NCBI GenBank assembly: GCA_021810045.1 | Contig: JAJZJR010000009.1 | Coordinates: 1-64,000 of the forward strand | DNA length: 64,000 nucleotides | Source: Thermoplasmata archaeon | GTDB taxonomy: Archaea > Thermoplasmatota > Thermoplasmata > Thermoplasmatales > Thermoplasmataceae | Direction of reading: 5' to 3' | In this document: positions 3 through 31,122 of the stretch, in pieces | Numbering within the stretch: the stretch's first letter is position 1 | Layout: every line of letters begins with the position of its first letter | Program-made: the position numbers and the translations under genes | The notes under the pieces: generated by a model | Databases searched by the model: none | What the model was told of the DNA's origin: nothing | Seen by the model: only the letters and a program-made list of their open reading frames with translations

Positions 3-269
3 CCCCTGAGGAAGAACTTCAGCACTCTCTCACGTGGTTCACCTTTGAGAGGAAGGACAGCAAGGGAGATCAGGAAACTGGGAGAGGATCAGTGGAAGCT
101 CATCCACGAATATGGAAAAAGATGGACGGTGGAGATATATTTCTCAGGCCTGAAGATGGTCATGGGCGAGATCATAAGGGCAAGAAGAACGGATTACATG
201 ATCCGGGAAGTCGGACTGAAGGTGCTCTATTACAACATCATGAGGGAAAACACAAGGGCATATGGGTAG
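3..269 (+). pseudogene. DDE transposase, C-terminal part (cut by window edge)
   Basis: The frame is open from the left edge (first full codon at base 3) and ends with a stop at 269, so only about 88 C-terminal residues are visible. They fit the end of an IS4/IS5-like DDE transposase: a region with the pattern EYGKRWTVEIYFSGLK, in which the glutamate after RW-V would be the last catalytic acid, followed by a helical tail with KVLYYNIMREN. It would act by cutting and joining DNA at insertion-sequence ends. Whether the gene is whole cannot be judged because its start lies outside. It sits directly beside the P-loop ATPase gene of the integrated element, so it may be an insertion within that element. 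Confidence 0.75.
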
Positions 270-299
270 TTATGCAACACAGTTTAAAATATCTAAAAT

Positions 300-1715
300 C
301 TATTCCTTCACCAATTTCACTAATTTCACAGGTTTGGTCTTTCCCTTGGCAGTAATCATTTCAATGCTGTTGCCTTCCAGCATACTGTCAAGTGCGCTCT
401 TGACGTCTTCTTTATTCATCCCAAGTTTTTGTGCTATGTGTCCCTGAGATGCCCATTCTCCTTTCTTGTCTGGTGTAGCTTGGTAGACTTTGAGTACTCC
501 ATTGCTATCCTTTTCAGGATCAATTCTGTAGCCTTTTCCCTCGCGTATCAAGTCACTGTAAGCTCTCTTGACTTGGTCAACAATTCTTGTTATCTTTACG
601 GGATTCCAAGATTGCCTTCTCCTGTTCAGGTACTGATCATAGTATTCAAGGAATATTTCCTTGTATTCTTCCAGGTCAGTGATGGCACATTCAAGGTCAA
701 TTAGATCCATCAGAAGTGTCATTTCCCTACAATCTCCCGCACAATTCGGAATTTCAGTTTCAATGTAATTGTGATCGTACTTAATCCTTGAGGCCGCGTA
801 AATCATCGCCAACTGTAGAACCTGTCCCTGAAATTTAGTTGTGGCCTTGATTTCCATGGTATCATCTTTGGTTTCATGGGCTTCAATCCGGGCCACTTGA
901 AGCTTGTCCACATATTGGGCGTATCCTTGTTTAAAAGAATCCGAAGCGTCGACAGTCCTAATTTGTTTTAGAACCTTGAAATATTCTTCATTCATATCTT
1001 CAAGAAGTTCATTCAATGCGATTTCTCCGTCATCGCCAAGTGGATTATAGCGCAGAGGGGCCTCATCTTTAACATAGAAGAACCTGAATCCTATCCCCTG
1101 TTCCCAGTATTGGTCTGATAAATGATTTAGGAAGATCGGTGTTGATGTAAGCCATGTCGTGCAGTAAAGGATGTCAGGATATGATTCGTTGCCACGTCCT
1201 GTGGTCCCCGAATCCTGTACTTCATTATCCATCATTTCAGCATACATTTCAAAAGTCGATGAAAGGGCGCCACTCCTGTTTTCCTTCGCAAGGGTTGAGG
1301 CTTCGTCTCTGATTATTGCCATTGAATATGGCACGGTATTGTGCTTTATCCCTTCTGGAACCCTGTTAAGGTTGGCGAGGATACTCTGTGGTGTATGTTT
1401 AGAGAATAATCGCTTTTGGCTTCCAAGGGACTGATTAAGGTATTGGAATGATCTTTCAAGGAATTTCCTTGCGGCAGTCTTGTTTGATCCTGATGGACCG
1501 ATCCAGAGGTGTCCAATCGATGCTCTTATGGGGCCCTGTTTTGTTGAATACTTGGCATTGCTTAATGCCATGGATAGCTGTGTCTTTAGTACACACTTCA
1601 TAACATGGTTAGGCACTGGAACAATCTCACGAGCTCTATCAAAGTAGTCTGTGAAATAAGACTGTATAACTGGCGATTCCACACGATTTAAATTCTTGTT
1701 TTCTATATTTTCCAT
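300..1715 (-). CDS. P-loop ATPase of an integrated element, possible replication helicase
   Basis: A 471-residue protein with a clear Walker A motif GPSGSNKT near residues 73-80 and a Walker B-like strand MAIIRDEAS near 132-140, followed by a Thr/Ser-rich strand (CTTWLTSTP) that may be a sensor. The last 70 residues look like a winged helix (GHIAQKLGMNKEDVKSAL). The plan resembles DUF3987-type ATPases and other plasmid or virus replication ATPases, but I cannot assign a family firmly. I place the start at the ATG at 1715 because a GTGATC stretch lies just upstream; a GTG at 1724 is possible. It lies in an integrated element next to tRNA-Thr, with an AbrB-like gene upstream on the same strand, so a role in replication of that element is an inference. 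Confidence 0.6.
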   Translation of the reverse strand: MENIENKNLNRVESPVIQSYFTDYFDRAREIVPVPNHVMKCVLKTQLSMALSNAKYSTKQGPIRASIGHLWIGPSGSNKTAARKFLERSFQYLNQSLGSQKRLFSKHTPQSILANLNRVPEGIKHNTVPYSMAIIRDEASTLAKENRSGALSSTFEMYAEMMDNEVQDSGTTGRGNESYPDILYCTTWLTSTPIFLNHLSDQYWEQGIGFRFFYVKDEAPLRYNPLGDDGEIALNELLEDMNEEYFKVLKQIRTVDASDSFKQGYAQYVDKLQVARIEAHETKDDTMEIKATTKFQGQVLQLAMIYAASRIKYDHNYIETEIPNCAGDCREMTLLMDLIDLECAITDLEEYKEIFLEYYDQYLNRRRQSWNPVKITRIVDQVKRAYSDLIREGKGYRIDPEKDSNGVLKVYQATPDKKGEWASQGHIAQKLGMNKEDVKSALDSMLEGNSIEMITAKGKTKPVKLVKLVKE

Positions 1716-1776
1716 TAAGATCACTTTCCGCTCCTGTTTGCAGACAGGGGCTCATTTTTTTCTTTTCAGGTTCACA

Positions 1777-1926
1777 TCATTTCTCATCAGGGTACAATAA
1801 AAGCAGCCCCTCTTTTGTTTCCCGCATTTTCAATTTCATGCCAGCTCCAAGATTATGGATCTCAGTCAGCGTTTTTGGGATAGTAATGATGAGAGACCCG
1901 CCAAAATCCTGTATTTTTCTTTCCAT
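1777..1926 (-). CDS. AbrB/SpoVT-type DNA-binding protein
   Basis: A 49-residue protein with the swapped-hairpin AbrB pattern: KIQDFGGSLIITIPK near the N terminus, then a hydrophobic segment ending in KEGLLLLYP. Such proteins bind DNA as dimers and often serve as antitoxins or as regulators of plasmids and viruses. I choose the ATG at 1926 because an AT-rich TATA-like stretch (TTTTAAATATTTG) lies about 24 bases upstream, which suggests a leaderless transcript; a longer frame with a GTG at 1977 would run over that box. No partner toxin is evident beside it, so regulation of the downstream ATPase gene on the same strand is more likely. Confidence 0.6.
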   Translation of the reverse strand: MERKIQDFGGSLIITIPKTLTEIHNLGAGMKLKMRETKEGLLLLYPDEK

Positions 1927-2050
1927 ATTTCTAATTAATTTTTTCAAATATTTAAAACTATATTTTCTATGGGACACGTAAAATACGGCTTCTGTGAATG
2001 ATTCAATTTGCTAAAACCATACTAAAGACAAGCATGATCTCGAAACGAGG

Positions 2051-2590
2051 TTAAAGAGGGTGCCAGTCCCCTCCTGCAAGTTCAATGAAGTTGAAGGCTT
2101 GTTTAGGTCGGTTCTCATCTCTGTATTCTGGATAGAATCTGTTTACCCATTCTTCGTGTTCATTTGGATCTGAAGGGATATAGAAGGACCCTTCATCATC
2201 TATTTCGAGGTTAGGCATCCAAGTTTCCTTAATAGTTACAAGCATCCAAATCAGTAACTGATGTGTAAGGGGCTCCCTGTTAGTTTTACACCACGTTTCA
2301 ATCTTCCAAATGTCTCCGTATTTCACAAACACGAAATCAATGCTTTCAGCATATGTCTCAGAGGAGTGGAACCTCAGACCTCGTTCGTAAACCTTTTCTG
2401 CATTTTCAAAGAGTCTACCTATGCTGAGACAAAATGTAGTATTGCTACTCTGAACTGAAGTCGTTGCAATTAAGTTGTCGACCTCAAAATATTTCCAATT
2501 CAGGCCTTTCGTCATGAGTTTGACATAATTCAAGATCTTCCCGAGAGAGACGGTGTCTGTTTCGCCTTTGTAGAAAATAGTGCACCCCAT
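2051..2590 (-). CDS. Unknown protein of the integrated element
   Basis: I do not recognise this 179-residue soluble protein. It has no signal peptide or membrane segment, is rich in aromatic and acidic residues in its second half, and ends with an FNFIELAGGDWHPL tail. Its start codon overlaps the stop of the 135-residue gene upstream by one base (TAATG), so the two are translationally coupled and probably work together. Both belong to the block between the AbrB-like gene and the divergent winged-helix gene of the element at tRNA-Thr. A virus- or plasmid-specific function is likely by position only. Confidence 0.5.
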   Translation of the reverse strand: MGCTIFYKGETDTVSLGKILNYVKLMTKGLNWKYFEVDNLIATTSVQSSNTTFCLSIGRLFENAEKVYERGLRFHSSETYAESIDFVFVKYGDIWKIETWCKTNREPLTHQLLIWMLVTIKETWMPNLEIDDEGSFYIPSDPNEHEEWVNRFYPEYRDENRPKQAFNFIELAGGDWHPL

Positions 2591-2997
2591 TAGTGCACCT
2601 TCGTATTAGGATCATAGAGTTGAACGTCTCCTGGCCACAGGTCTATATCAGCTCGAAAATTCATTAGTATCTGTTCCAGGGTAAGAAACATAAGATTTCC
2701 GCTAATATCAGGAATTCCATAGCAAATATACCCAGTTCCGTCCCTGAATTCACTCACCAATCCGAATTCAACCTGTTCTTTCAGTACCTTGAGGATGTTA
2801 TATTCCCATACCTGTGCTTTCACTTTCATATTTTGTATCAATGAGATTAACTCTGCAGCAGTTCTGTTCTGGATGAGCCTTAAGAATTGCATCCTCTCAC
2901 CTCTTGTTCTGGCATTTGGAGGCCTTATTGCCTCCTCGTAGCTGTCCAGTTCTTTTCTCCACCTTTGGGTGGCATTTTCGTTGGTATTTATTACCAT
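2590..2997 (-). CDS. Unknown protein of the integrated element, first gene of a pair
   Basis: A 135-residue protein that I cannot assign. The first 60 residues are charged and helical (RWRKELDSYEEAIRPP, GERMQFLRLIQNRTAAEL), suggesting a coiled or helical bundle, and the second half is predicted strand and loop with several Gly and Pro. It is co-transcribed with the 179-residue gene downstream through a TAATG overlap. It is divergent from the winged-helix gene that begins about 110 bases away, so the space between the two may hold the control region of this part of the element. Confidence 0.5.
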   Translation of the reverse strand: MVINTNENATQRWRKELDSYEEAIRPPNARTRGERMQFLRLIQNRTAAELISLIQNMKVKAQVWEYNILKVLKEQVEFGLVSEFRDGTGYICYGIPDISGNLMFLTLEQILMNFRADIDLWPGDVQLYDPNTKVH

Positions 2998-3104
2998 GAA
3001 TTAGAAATGGACAAGGTTCTCTTTTGAAATCACTTTGAAAACATGAATTCCATCTTTATTAACTCAGTAATATATTTATGATCCTAAATCTTTTCTTATT
3101 CGAA

Positions 3105-3767
3105 ATGGGATCAAATAAGGAGGGTATAGCTCAAAAGTTTATTGTCAATCTGTTGAGATTTCAAGGTGAAATGGGCCTTAGTATGATAGATTACGCGCTC
3201 AGAGAGGAAATAAGCGTAGCATACAAAGGTGGGTATGGCTACAAGCTAACAAAGTCGCATCTCAGGAAAATAGAAGAACTCGGTTACATAAGATCACGGG
3301 CTATTCCTGTGCCAGAAAGAAAATCCCGAGAAACTGATGGGGTTGAACCTCTCTATTATGCAAGGAAACCAGATAGTAGATGGTTCGGAGTATATGCACT
3401 AAATCTCCCCAAAGTTGGAAAGTTACCTGCTTTCCCACCACAGTGGTACTTAGAAGACCATTACTTCAATGAATCAGAGCTAGCTGAGATGTCAAGCAGT
3501 GACATTAGGAAAGAAGGTCTCAAATTATTTGACGAAGCGGCAGAAAGTAATGGAATCACATGGAATGAATGCAAATCTATTGCGGAGAAGTTCGATTTAC
3601 GTGGCCCAGAGTATTCCGATGAAAAGATTACTTATGCTTTCTATAAAAAGAAATTTTTGAAGGAAATGGACACACTAAAGGAGAATAGAAAACACAAAAT
3701 TAAAAAGGTGGAGAAAAGAAGAGACGCAATCAGAGAGTCTTTAAAGACTAATCAAGAGATCTCATAG
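3105..3767 (+). CDS. Winged-helix protein of the integrated element
   Basis: A 220-residue protein. Residues from about 10 to 75 look like a winged-helix DNA-binding domain of PadR-like type: helices around IAQKFIVNLLRFQGE and KSHLRKIEELGYIRSRAI, then a wing. The middle is Pro/Trp rich, and the C terminus is a long Lys/Glu-rich helix, possibly a coiled coil. The start is set at the ATG at 3105 because a TATA-like box (TAATATATTTATG, about 3068-3080) lies some 25-30 bases upstream; a frame start at 3078 would lie in the box itself. Divergent from the unknown pair at 2051-2997. It may regulate the element; this is inference. Confidence 0.55.
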   Translation: MGSNKEGIAQKFIVNLLRFQGEMGLSMIDYALREEISVAYKGGYGYKLTKSHLRKIEELGYIRSRAIPVPERKSRETDGVEPLYYARKPDSRWFGVYALNLPKVGKLPAFPPQWYLEDHYFNESELAEMSSSDIRKEGLKLFDEAAESNGITWNECKSIAEKFDLRGPEYSDEKITYAFYKKKFLKEMDTLKENRKHKIKKVEKRRDAIRESLKTNQEIS

Positions 3768-3907
3768 TCGCCTTATCGCCCCACTGTGGTTACAAATTCA
3801 GATCCTTAAATCATTGCATGAACGAGATAAATAGCCATTCTGTTGACAAGTAAAATTTTTCAAACTTAATTAGGATAAAACTCATTTATTTACAAGGGTG
3901 AACAAAG

Positions 3908-4144
3908 GTGAAGAAAAACGTTGTTCTGTCATTGGAAGAGAACCTACGAAACACAGCAAAAGAAATGGGTTTAAACCTGTCAGGTTTCCTACAAAGTAAG
4001 TTGATTGAGTTCATCAAAAGCAACGATGGCCAAATAGTTGCCAAAAAAGGAAATCATAACGAGAGCCACTGGAGGGTTTCGATCCCCCGACCTGCTGATT
4101 ACAAATCAGCTGCTCTGCCAGCTGAGCTACAGTGGCGCTGTTGA
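3908..4144 (+). CDS. Probable int(N): N-terminal fragment of an SSV-type integrase, reading into tRNA-Thr
   Basis: The 78-residue frame starts with GTG at 3908, preceded by GGGTGA six bases upstream. Residues 1-40 look like a ribbon-helix-helix or similar short DNA-binding fold (strand VVLSLEE, helix with GLNLSGFLQSKLIEFI). From about residue 52 the frame runs through the antisense of the tRNA-Thr gene, giving RPADYKSAALPAELQWR, which is simply the translated tRNA, and stops just past the tRNA 5' end. In archaeal SSV-type integration the attachment site lies inside the integrase gene near its N-terminal end, so the integrated form leaves a short int(N) reading from the element into the tRNA gene. 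This frame has that orientation and position. Alternative: an unrelated antitoxin-like gene that happens to run into the tRNA. Confidence 0.5.
   Translation: MKKNVVLSLEENLRNTAKEMGLNLSGFLQSKLIEFIKSNDGQIVAKKGNHNESHWRVSIPRPADYKSAALPAELQWRC
4064..4110. other. Proposed attachment site (att) at the tRNA-Thr 3' half
   Basis: The 3' half of tRNA-Thr borders foreign-looking genes on one side and ordinary chromosomal genes on the other. Archaeal integrases commonly recombine within the anticodon loop to 3' end of tRNA genes. The exact core cannot be fixed without the second copy, which would be at the far end of the element, left of the window. Confidence 0.4.
4064..4136 (-). tRNA. tRNA-Thr (anticodon UGU)
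   Basis: Read on the minus strand, a full cloverleaf of 73 nucleotides: seven-pair acceptor stem GCCACTG/CAGTGGC, D arm with AGCTCAGCTGG, anticodon stem GCTGA/TCAGC with loop TTTGTAA (anticodon TGT at 4101-4103), and T arm with GGTTTCGATCC on the opposite strand. The discriminator base is U, as is usual for archaeal tRNA-Thr. CCA is not encoded, so it must be added by the CCA-adding enzyme whose gene is at the right end of this window. No intron is seen. The 3' end faces the mobile element, the side where integrases normally insert. Confidence 0.95.
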
Positions 4145-4349
4145 GAGATATGTTACTTAATCATAAAACTTTCACTGTCTTTCCAGCCAATTTGCAGAAA
4201 TTATTTTTTTTAACAATGTTTCTCTGGCAAAGGAAAAGGTATCAAAAAAACTCATGACATTCAGGTTCCATGATGTCGTCATCTGTATATTTTATTATTT
4301 AAACTTCACTGCACAAGTTTATTATCGTTATCATCAATAAGCCTTCTAC

Positions 4350-4577
4350 ATGGAATCTCTCGAAATTATCAGGAGCATGCCACCTTCTGCAAAACTGCTC
4401 CTGCGAGTCCTTAAAGAAAATAAAATTTCACGCTTTGATGAACTTATGGATGAGACCATGCTTTCCAAAAGAACTCTTCTTTATGCCATCAAAACCCTCA
4501 AGGAACTGGACCTAATCGAAACCCAGATATGCATGAGTGATGCCAGGAGAAGGTTCTACTGCGTTAAACTCAGGTAA
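4350..4577 (+). CDS. Small winged-helix transcription regulator
   Basis: A 75-residue single-domain protein. The pattern SAKLLLRVLKENKISRFDELMDET, then SKRTLLYAIKTLKELDLIE and a wing ending RRRFYCVKL, is that of a MarR/ArsR-like winged helix: helices 1-3 with recognition helix near residues 40-55. No metal-binding cysteine pair is apparent; the two cysteines are near the end. It lies 47 bases upstream of the glcD-like gene on the same strand and could be co-transcribed with it or control it. An AT-rich box (ATTTTATTATTTAAA) at about 4290 precedes it. The ligand is unknown. Confidence 0.65.
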   Translation: MESLEIIRSMPPSAKLLLRVLKENKISRFDELMDETMLSKRTLLYAIKTLKELDLIETQICMSDARRRFYCVKLR

Positions 4578-4624
4578 TCATCCATTCTGAACAAGAATTA
4601 TTATGTTTCAGAAAATCCTTGATC

Positions 4625-6019
4625 ATGGATCACATCAGGGAACTTTCCAGAATTCTAGGCAGTAACCTAATAACCGAAAGGGAGCAGAAAATACCCTACA
4701 TGACTGACGCCTCTTATTATGAGGGTGATCTGCCCATGGCAGTAGCAATTCCTGACACCGTAGATCAGGTTTCAGCTGTCATGAAATACTGCCAGGGAAA
4801 TTCTGTTCCCGTGGTTGCCAGGGGCGGAGGAACGGCACTCACAGGCTCATCCATACCAATGGAGGACATGCTTGTAATCAGCCTGGCAAAGTTTGACAGG
4901 ATACTTGAGGTACACCCTGAAGATCGTTACGCCATTGTTGAACCAGGAGTAAAACTTGACAACCTGAACCAGCACCTGCAAAAATACGGTTTCTTCTACC
5001 CTCCGGATCCGGCCAGTTCCATCGCTGCAACCGTGGGCGGTTCCATTTCAACCAACGCAGGCGGGCTAAGGGCCTCAATGTACGGAACAACCAAGAACTG
5101 GGTCCTTGGACTTGAGTTGGTTCTTCCTGATGGAAATAAAATCAATACAGGAGGCAAAGTCCTGAAGCGAACTGCAGGCTATGACCTTACGTCCCTTTTG
5201 GTGGGCGCCGAGGGTACCCTGGGAATCATAACCAAAGCCATAGTGAAGATCTGGCCTCTCGTGGAATCAAAAGGCAGAATACTCGCATATTACGATTCAA
5301 TAGAGAAAGTGGGAAGTGCAATTTCAGATCTAAAGGGTAAAGGTATTACGCCACTCATTGCGGAATTTCTTGACCGGATTACAATGCATTCACTGTCACA
5401 GACTCGTGGGCTGGAATTTCCCGAGACTGCAAGCCACATGCTTATCATCGATATTGCTTCAACAAGGGAGAGCATAGGCAGAGAGCTGAAAGATGCTGAA
5501 GAAATACTGAAAAAATTCAATCCCATAAGCACAGAGATCACAACCGACAAGGAAGAAATGGACCGTATCTACGAAGCCAGAAAAGGTGCATATTCATCTC
5601 TGCTCAGTGAGAGGTCCACAATGAGCGAACGTGTGGTCATTGGCGATATTGTTGTGCCCGCATCTGAACTTCCTCAGGCCCTTAAGGAAAGTGAGGAAAA
5701 AGTGCAGAAATACAATCTTACAGTTGCACTCTTTGGCCATATCTCTGACGGAAACATCCACGCAAACATATACGCGGACATTGCTGACCAGGACCACATG
5801 AAGCGGGTGGAAAGCTTCCAGCATGATTTTGCAATGATCGCCATCATGCATGGTGGCAGTGTATCCGCCGAACATGGCATAGGGCTGGAGAAGAAGGAAC
5901 TACTTAAAATGGAAATGGACGAGACCAACAATGCATACGTAATGGAGATCATGAAATCCATCAGGAAAATCTTCGATCCAAATGGAATAATGAACAGGGG
6001 TAAGATGTTTGATCAATGA
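4625..6019 (+). CDS. glcD: FAD-linked 2-hydroxyacid oxidase/dehydrogenase (GlcD type)
   Basis: About 464 residues, the usual length for GlcD/D-lactate dehydrogenases. The N-terminal FAD-binding PCMH domain is seen in VVARGGGTALTGSS (about 65-78), the DPASSIAATVGGSISTNAGG segment (about 127-146) and YGTTKNWVLG. The C-terminal FAD-oxidase domain has HISDGNIHANI and SAEHGIGLEKK, the latter with the conserved histidine. It would oxidise D-lactate or glycolate to the 2-oxoacid and pass electrons to its Fe-S partner. The next gene, encoding that partner, overlaps it by about 11 bases. I take the ATG at 4625; a TTG two codons upstream is also open. Confidence 0.85.
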   Translation: MDHIRELSRILGSNLITEREQKIPYMTDASYYEGDLPMAVAIPDTVDQVSAVMKYCQGNSVPVVARGGGTALTGSSIPMEDMLVISLAKFDRILEVHPEDRYAIVEPGVKLDNLNQHLQKYGFFYPPDPASSIAATVGGSISTNAGGLRASMYGTTKNWVLGLELVLPDGNKINTGGKVLKRTAGYDLTSLLVGAEGTLGIITKAIVKIWPLVESKGRILAYYDSIEKVGSAISDLKGKGITPLIAEFLDRITMHSLSQTRGLEFPETASHMLIIDIASTRESIGRELKDAEEILKKFNPISTEITTDKEEMDRIYEARKGAYSSLLSERSTMSERVVIGDIVVPASELPQALKESEEKVQKYNLTVALFGHISDGNIHANIYADIADQDHMKRVESFQHDFAMIAIMHGGSVSAEHGIGLEKKELLKMEMDETNNAYVMEIMKSIRKIFDPNGIMNRGKMFDQ

Positions 6020-8561: not shown

Positions 8562-9293
8562 TTAGGCATCCAATGATGAAACCTCAATATGTGAAGTTAC
8601 CATTTCTTCTCTCTTTCTCCCACCAGCCCTGAAAATCTTCAGATATGGAAGGAGTGCTTCCATTAACCTGTTCTCAGCCTTGCGAAGATGCTCCTCATAA
8701 GTTGATCTGGTAATGCCCAGACTCGTGGCAATTGAGTCAGTGGTAATGTCCCTGGGTGATCTGTAATAACCGTAATCAAAAGCCTTAACGATAGCATCGA
8801 TCTGCTTATCAGTCAGCTGCTCAAAGAATGTTTCAACCCATATATTTGAGGGCACTGCATCGATATGCACTACCTTCTTGCTCAGCAACTCGTTCGGCCC
8901 CTTTCTGGGGAGTTCTGCAAATAATTTCTTTGTGTCATTTTCGCTGAAGCTTATTATCTTGAAATATCCCCAGCCATCCAGATATACTGCAGGGTGAACA
9001 AGCGAACAGTTGTTTCTTTCAGCAATATTCCAGATGCTGTCAAGAACCTCACAACTGTCCTTCATTGTAAGCACAATCCCATCGCTGGATCGCTGATGCT
9101 TTTCAAAGGTCAGGTTCAGATTTTTTGCATATTCTTCAAGCTCTTCCATGAGATTTTCATGGCCCATGGGAACATGCAGCATTTCCCTGTTCCATACACA
9201 CCACATCGAAATCCTTGCTCCAGGATATCTGCTGGAAATCTCTATGAAAGGATAATCATACTTTACTCTGAGACTGATTTCCCATGTTTCCAT
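8562..9293 (-). CDS. HTH_10 (bacterio-opsin activator type) transcription regulator
   Basis: A 243-residue protein. The last third holds the archaeal HTH_10 domain: LTDKQIDAIVKAFDYGYY, then an SIATSLGITRSTYEEHLRKAE helix-turn-helix, at about residues 165-225. The first 150 residues form an uncharacterised sensor-like domain without membrane segments. Such regulators are widespread in haloarchaea and Thermoplasmatales. The gene faces the MFS/glcDF genes tail to tail, so no regulatory target can be inferred from position. Confidence 0.8.
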   Translation of the reverse strand: METWEISLRVKYDYPFIEISSRYPGARISMWCVWNREMLHVPMGHENLMEELEEYAKNLNLTFEKHQRSSDGIVLTMKDSCEVLDSIWNIAERNNCSLVHPAVYLDGWGYFKIISFSENDTKKLFAELPRKGPNELLSKKVVHIDAVPSNIWVETFFEQLTDKQIDAIVKAFDYGYYRSPRDITTDSIATSLGITRSTYEEHLRKAENRLMEALLPYLKIFRAGGRKREEMVTSHIEVSSLDA

Positions 9294-13388: not shown

Positions 13389-13590
13389 GCCACTCCAATG
13401 GCAACCGTATAAAATAATTATTTGAAAAATCATCAGGAAGCAGGGAGAACACTAACAGTCCACAAATTGAAATAATATCCCATATGGAGAGGTCTGAGCC
13501 ACCTGATTCCGGGTGTATTTCATATTTCAGAGGAATCAAAAGAATAAATGCGAAAAAAATGTTATTGGCTATAAAAAAATGGAAAATGGA

Positions 13591-30687: not shown

Positions 30688-31122
30688 ATGACCTTGTACT
30701 TCACTGATAGTAAAGGCTCATTTGCAGTCATTGCAGGGTATGTCCTGTCGATTTTGTCAATTGGGGTTACTATTTTTACCACATTTAATTTTGTCATTTA
30801 TTGGACGTACCACTTGCCTTCAGGCGCCAATTACTATCCTATGCTCGGTGTAAACATACTTATTTGCCTATCACTTATAGCCTTCCCCATTTTATTCTTA
30901 GTACATCCTGTGAGCATATTGTCTAAGACTTATTTGGTCATAGTAATCTTCCTGATCACATTTTTCATTGCTGCATTCCTGTATCTATTTGATATGTTCA
31001 TAAATTCTACAAGCCCGTTTGTAATATCATTCCTGTTGAATCTAATCCTGCTGATTCCAAGTGTATTTCGATCACGATATTTACGAGGGGCAGGTCCTGA
31101 ACCGAGATCCGGAGGTATTTGA
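30688..31122 (+). CDS. Four-segment membrane protein of unknown function
   Basis: About 144 residues with four strong hydrophobic segments (AVIAGYVLSILSIGVTIF, YPMLGVNILICLSLIAF, YLVIVIFLITFFIAAFLY and VISFLLNLILLIPSV) and a short basic C terminus. It begins at ATG 30688 with AGGTG directly before; a GTG one codon earlier is in frame. It follows the secreted protein gene by about 70 bases and may form a unit with it. Both are flanked by the transposase repeat. I do not recognise a family. Confidence 0.6.
   Translation: MTLYFTDSKGSFAVIAGYVLSILSIGVTIFTTFNFVIYWTYHLPSGANYYPMLGVNILICLSLIAFPILFLVHPVSILSKTYLVIVIFLITFFIAAFLYLFDMFINSTSPFVISFLLNLILLIPSVFRSRYLRGAGPEPRSGGI

Follow-up and report, generated by a model that had tools for sequence, protein, structure and literature searches.

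The 64,000-nucleotide stretch of DNA analyzed here (the window) begins where contig C53 of its assembly begins, and its left end very probably belongs to an element of at least 22 kb that integrated at tRNA-Thr(UGU) by means of an SSV/pT26-2-type recombinase, split its own recombinase gene, and carries a class 2 DISARM system together with Vsr. This reading is drawn from features apparent in the sequence itself: both att copies, the in-frame junction, the homology of the integrase, the empty site, and the DISARM genes. The assembled part of the element comprises 17.9 kb of contig C62 of the same genome (C62:44777-62684) and 4.1 kb at the start of C53 (C53:1-4106), with the middle unassembled. 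The G+C content is low in both arms, at 38.3 and 39.9%, respectively, compared with ~45%.

A first-pass annotation of the window had described an intact tRNA-Thr(UGU) at the edge of a foreign-looking block of genes, with an open reading frame leaving the block through the antisense of the tRNA. The frame, its orientation, and the tRNA are real: ARAGORN identifies the tRNA (Table 1), and the list of open reading frames contains a + strand frame at 3908-4144, with a GTG start and 78 codons, that passes from an AT-rich block through the tRNA antisense. The foreign appearance of the block is also borne out: its G+C content is 39.9% over positions 291-4060, versus 44.7% in the host part, and all 224 equally long host stretches have a higher value. 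However, the claim that the block stops exactly at the tRNA 3' end does not stand, and the boundary is instead a crossover inside 4061-4106, past which the frame extends in host DNA to 4144. The start of the frame was said to resemble a ribbon-helix-helix (RHH) domain, and residues 2-39 indeed match the CcdA RHH family (Pfam, E 5e-5). A single-sequence AlphaFold model of the 78 residues has helices at 9-19 and 24-38, and its top folds are CopG and Arc, at E-values of 0.4 or above that are not significant. Because a random stretch of 26 codons, including tRNA antisense, is open by chance ~29% of the time, the antisense frame by itself is weak evidence.

Table 1. Features at the left end of the window.
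Feature	Position	Strand	Basis
IS transposase C-terminal end (DDE_Tnp_1-like), inserted in the element, at the start of C53	3-269	+	Pfam DDE_Tnp_1, E 0.0024, below curated cut-off
474-aa element protein with GPSGSNKT (P-loop-like) motif	300-1724	-	ORF; no family at useful E-value
66-aa MazE/AbrB-like DNA-binding protein (predicted)	1777-1977	-	Pfam MazE_antitoxin, E 9e-6, over cut-off
179-aa element orphan	2051-2590	-	ORF; no family match
135-aa element orphan	2590-2997	-	ORF; no family over cut-off
229-aa element orphan	3078-3767	+	ORF; no family match
int(N), putative RHH N-terminal piece of split integrase, up to end of att core	3908-4106	+	CcdA-type RHH; in phase with int(C) on C62
att core (attL), 46 bp, identical to attR at C62:44777-44822	4061-4106	+	Assembly search
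Intact target gene tRNA-Thr(UGU)	4063-4136	-	ARAGORN
Host flank right of attL: tRNA 5' half, HTH protein (4350-4577), FAD-linked oxidase (4619-6019)	4107-6019	+	Orthologues beside tRNA-Thr(UGU) in relatives

A partner for this frame lies elsewhere in the genome. Window positions 4030-4144, searched against the entire assembly, recovered a partial tRNA-Thr copy at C62:44774-44822, which includes a 46-bp core shared with the window. This core reaches from the tRNA anticodon loop to 2 bp beyond the 3' end of the tRNA, and with one copy on each of C53 and C62 there are two Thr(UGU) cores in the assembly. Directly behind the core on C62, and fused to it in frame, is a 261-aa frame, int(C) (C62:44822-45607), that matches the catalytic domain family PF16795 (Phage_integr_3; E 2.4e-44, 151.5 bits with a cut-off of 27) and a PHROGs integrase family (E 3e-45). 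It also aligns with structures of the SSV1 integrase (3vcf, 4dks, and 3uxu; E ~4e-10), including the KxxR motif and the tyrosine. A partial tRNA-Thr copy fused to the C-terminal frame of a tyrosine recombinase had been expected, and such a copy was found, on contig C62 and not farther to the left on the same contig, because the assembly breaks at insertion sequences. Neither of the two outcomes that had been named as refuting the proposal was seen. The anticipated R..HxxR..Y motif is in fact R..KxxR..Y, as in SSV1, with R193, K264, R267, and Y300 invariant in nine homologues.

The codon phase of int(N) in the window is the same as that of int(C) on C62, and joining the two in silico at the shared core, as had been suggested, gives a single open frame of 327 aa with no stop. 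The attP-like core of 46 bp thus lies inside the integrase gene, is derived from the tRNA, and is in frame in both halves. The joined protein aligns with the intact integrase of pT26-2 over 98% of its length with 31% identity (E 3e-28), and the two were also aligned globally. The N-terminal stretch alone gave no significant match to pT26-2, with 271 of 2000 shuffles scoring as well, and the apparent RHH match of int(N) to pT26-2 was consequently dropped as evidence. No intact joined integrase or circular form was found in the viral and genome collections. Together, the identical core and the phase-matched int(C) mark frame 3908-4144, with high confidence, as int(N) of a tyrosine recombinase of type I ("suicidal", SSV/pT26-2-like), in line with the proposal.

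The two halves of the gene are at the two ends of the element, on two contigs, and are linked by synteny with a genome of the same genus. In this genome, G291, a single contig carries one uninterrupted tRNA-Thr(UGU) between both host flanks. To the left of the tRNA are a cytochrome-bd-like pair, a permease, and a UbiD-like protein, which are the genes found left of the att copy on C62, and to the right are the HTH and FAD-oxidase genes found right of the tRNA in the window (gene names were read from translations). Because the left part of C62 and the right part of C53 adjoin in the uninterrupted G291 chromosome, the DNA between them is inserted. Joining the host flanks at the core in silico restores tRNA-Thr. 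The gene closest to attR on C62 is not conserved in relatives, and the synteny is therefore drawn from genes farther out. A second genome of the same genus, G255, contains a decayed insertion at the same tRNA-Thr(UGU) that keeps both att copies (G255:C55:623-5891, locus L080). There, a 95% att copy is followed by ~12 codons of int(C) (MVEIRNEFVKWL against LDEIRDEFVKWL), and the final codons of int(N) (KGNSYESHWRVSIPRP against KGNHNESHWRVSIPRP) are found 5.2 kb away, before the intact tRNA.

The likely order of events would begin with an element in which attP, a 46-bp copy of the half of the tRNA from anticodon to 3' end, was carried within the integrase gene, with the RHH domain on one side of it and the core-binding and catalytic domains on the other. 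Site-specific recombination would then have restored tRNA-Thr(UGU) and left the gene in two pieces, int(N) and int(C). With its own gene split, the element probably cannot leave without a helper, and its exit would need a related intact integrase in trans. Excision of split copies of such integrases has been obtained once a related integrase was supplied (PMC8371274).

The C62 arm encodes DrmA, DrmB, DrmC, and DrmMII of class 2 DISARM, followed by Vsr and a 576-aa orphan. PADLOC identifies the DISARM set as complete and its genes as adjacent (drmA, E 0; drmB, 2e-187; drmC, 5e-39; drmMII, 8e-94), and the system is predicted to be active. The same arm encodes weak GIY-YIG-like and Mrr/DUF4365 nuclease-like proteins (L024:9198-9737 and L024:11553-12089), which may be further defense cargo. 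DrmB relatives occur in only four other genomes among 300 sampled in the class. In two genomes with DrmB, G052 and G270, the stretch read contains no integrase of this kind, and DISARM is therefore not generally tied to such elements. In the C53 arm, the 474-aa protein has no relatives in the four collections searched, and its AlphaFold model (pLDDT 33) is unusable. The transposase end at window 3-269 shares 61% identity with the end of a transposase of 312 aa from G206, and four other 3' ends of this insertion sequence are present in the genome of the window. The insertion sequences in which C62 ends and C53 starts are different ones, each present in several copies and with its 5' half missing from the assembly. 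Therefore, the assembly lacks at least one part of the element, and an attempt to link C62 to C53 through these insertion sequences failed, leaving the contigs not joined by assembled sequence. The two contigs probably hold the arms of one element, as indicated by the shared att core, the reading frame, and the synteny in the relative.

Because the middle of the element is unassembled, the arms could in principle derive from a tandem insertion of two type I elements at tRNA-Thr(UGU), with the int(N) of the window from one and the int(C) and DISARM genes of C62 from the other. In that case the joined integrase would be a hybrid, and the window genes and DISARM may belong to different elements. 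Stacked insertions do occur in this genome, as seen at the tRNA-Ala element described below, beside which stands a further int(C) that shares its Ala att core. Against this reading, a tandem arrangement needs a third Thr(UGU) core and the assembly has only two, and the joined frame is in phase and of full length; we consider it unlikely. The 78-residue frame could also be a stand-alone RHH antitoxin that runs into the tRNA antisense by chance. Its family match is to the CcdA antitoxin and the chance of an open antisense frame is appreciable, as noted above, but on C62 the identical core leads into an int(C) that is matched in phase, and three more RHH int(N) pieces enter tRNA-Ala or tRNA-Thr(GGU) in the same way, each with a matching int(C). 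The att pair refutes the antitoxin reading, to which we assign almost no probability.

The single self-split element favored here could also be viral in nature, a provirus resembling fuselloviruses or pleolipoviruses, and not a plasmid or defense island. SSV-type integrases occur in fuselloviruses, a pleomorphic provirus of Archaeoglobus provides a close integrase match (37% identity, E 4e-38), and viral genes could lie in the unseen middle. However, no scanned arm protein belongs to a PHROGs structural family, and the two complete relatives of the element carry prim-pol replication and type I restriction genes with no structural gene recognized in them. A provirus is accordingly improbable, slightly more so than the tandem arrangement. 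The first-pass annotation had offered a virus or a plasmid as the source of int(N), and a viral identity is not supported, with no structural gene recognized among the scanned arm proteins and a visible cargo of defense genes. Since none of these proteins is a recognized viral structural protein, an integrated plasmid-like element or defense island is more likely, a preference that the unassembled middle could change.

Related elements with split integrases are present in the same genome and in others. Contig C11 of the same genome contains a complete element at tRNA-Ala(UGC) (C11:8780-31089 including a stacked int(C); loci L117 and L170), with int(C) at 13432 and, ~17.6 kb apart, an int(N) that starts at 30853 and enters tRNA-Ala(UGC) at 31018-31089. 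The second int(C) with the same Ala core is at 8780, beside the complete element. Between the two Ala-specific int(C) genes, the reading frame through the shared tRNA segment differs, suggesting that it is the DNA of this segment, and not the peptide it encodes, that is constrained. In G110, which is assembled as a single contig, a 15.9-kb element at tRNA-Thr(GGU) has 45-bp repeats at its borders and both int(N) and int(C) (G110:C1:746724-762594, locus L116), and G261 again has an int(N)/int(C) pair, on two contigs. The C11 and G110 elements are syntenic, sharing a prim-pol replicase, a SprT-like protein, and HsdR/S/M at 63-86% protein identity, and yet their tRNA targets differ. Between their integrases, int(N) is 82% identical and the catalytic part 84%, compared with 53% for the core-binding part beside att; the two Thr(GGU) integrases are 67% identical in the core-binding part. 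In this small sample, the low core-binding identity fits what would be expected of target switching by replacement of the att segment together with its neighbor. Target switching is reportedly described in work from 2020 on suicidal integrases of deep-sea archaea. The int(N) of the window is only ~26% identical to that of the C11 element, a point against the favored reading.

An intact relative of the integrase in G243 (G243:C5:16560-17534, locus L153) has the RHH and catalytic domains with no tRNA-like segment, and no att pair was found nearby; this may be a member that has ceased to split its own gene. At locus L050, another search of direct repeats, around an intact relative, likewise gave no att pair. 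At tRNA-Thr(CGU) on contig C40 of the same genome as the window (G000:C40:31503-32827, locus L012), a degenerate partial second copy of the tRNA is found ~1.25 kb away with a similar flank (CCACTATTATCAAAG), and is perhaps the relic of another insertion.

Suicidal integrases are characterized by PF16795, an R..KxxR..Y motif, an att site of 40-50 bp inside the gene, and an int(N)/int(C) split (PMC8371274), all of which are found here. The element is therefore a well-supported new case of an already known integrase type. The type I, suicidal integrase of the Thermococcus sp. 26/2 plasmid pT26-2 (GU056179) likewise has PF16795 and a tRNA-derived segment inside the gene, and tRNA-Thr is among the targets of its family (PMC6972569). 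It differs in reading its own tRNA segment in another frame (IRTR type) and in its host lineage, and the paper on pT26-2 has no DISARM (PMC6972569). The fusellovirus integrases of SSV1 and SSV2 share a homologous catalytic domain, an att site inside the gene, and splitting upon integration, but are only ~25% identical, and the element has no fusellovirus genes in the parts seen. The integrase of Archaeoglobus profundus pleomorphic provirus 1 (BK065154) shows its 37% identity over the core-binding and catalytic parts, but sits in a viral genome with structural genes. In a tree of 12 integrase sequences, with two open forks, the pT26-2 and A. profundus provirus integrases group together, apart from those found here. 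In the tree, pT26-2 falls outside the clade found here. The pT26-2 plasmid family is marked by conserved core genes as well as by its integrase type, and the element, in which the integrase is of that type, is not classed with it. The DISARM locus resembles class 2 systems in encoding DrmA, DrmB, DrmC, and the cytosine methylase DrmMII side by side, and differs in riding on a type I tRNA element beside Vsr and a 576-aa orphan.

A review describes self-splitting integrases as exclusive to archaea, and their persistence as paradoxical because the element locks itself in; those detailed in it are from Sulfolobales and Thermococcales (PMC8371274). The open literature that we searched, with incomplete coverage, gave no account of such elements in the present lineage or of any that carry DISARM. 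Target diversity as such is already known, because the pT26-2 family shows diverse tRNA targets (PMC6972569). We tentatively propose, at somewhat less than even confidence, that the lineage hosts an undescribed group of suicidal-integrase elements that act as defense carriers (DISARM and type I restriction) and switch tRNA targets by swapping the tRNA segment and the adjoining core-binding half under conserved RHH and catalytic domains, with some relatives having lost the internal att site and become non-suicidal. The suicidal type is found at three places in one genome outside Sulfolobales and Thermococcales. Antiviral systems are present in two of these elements and would be a reason for the host to retain an element that is trapped, and the syntenic C11 (Ala) and G110 (Thr-GGU) elements make target switching directly testable.
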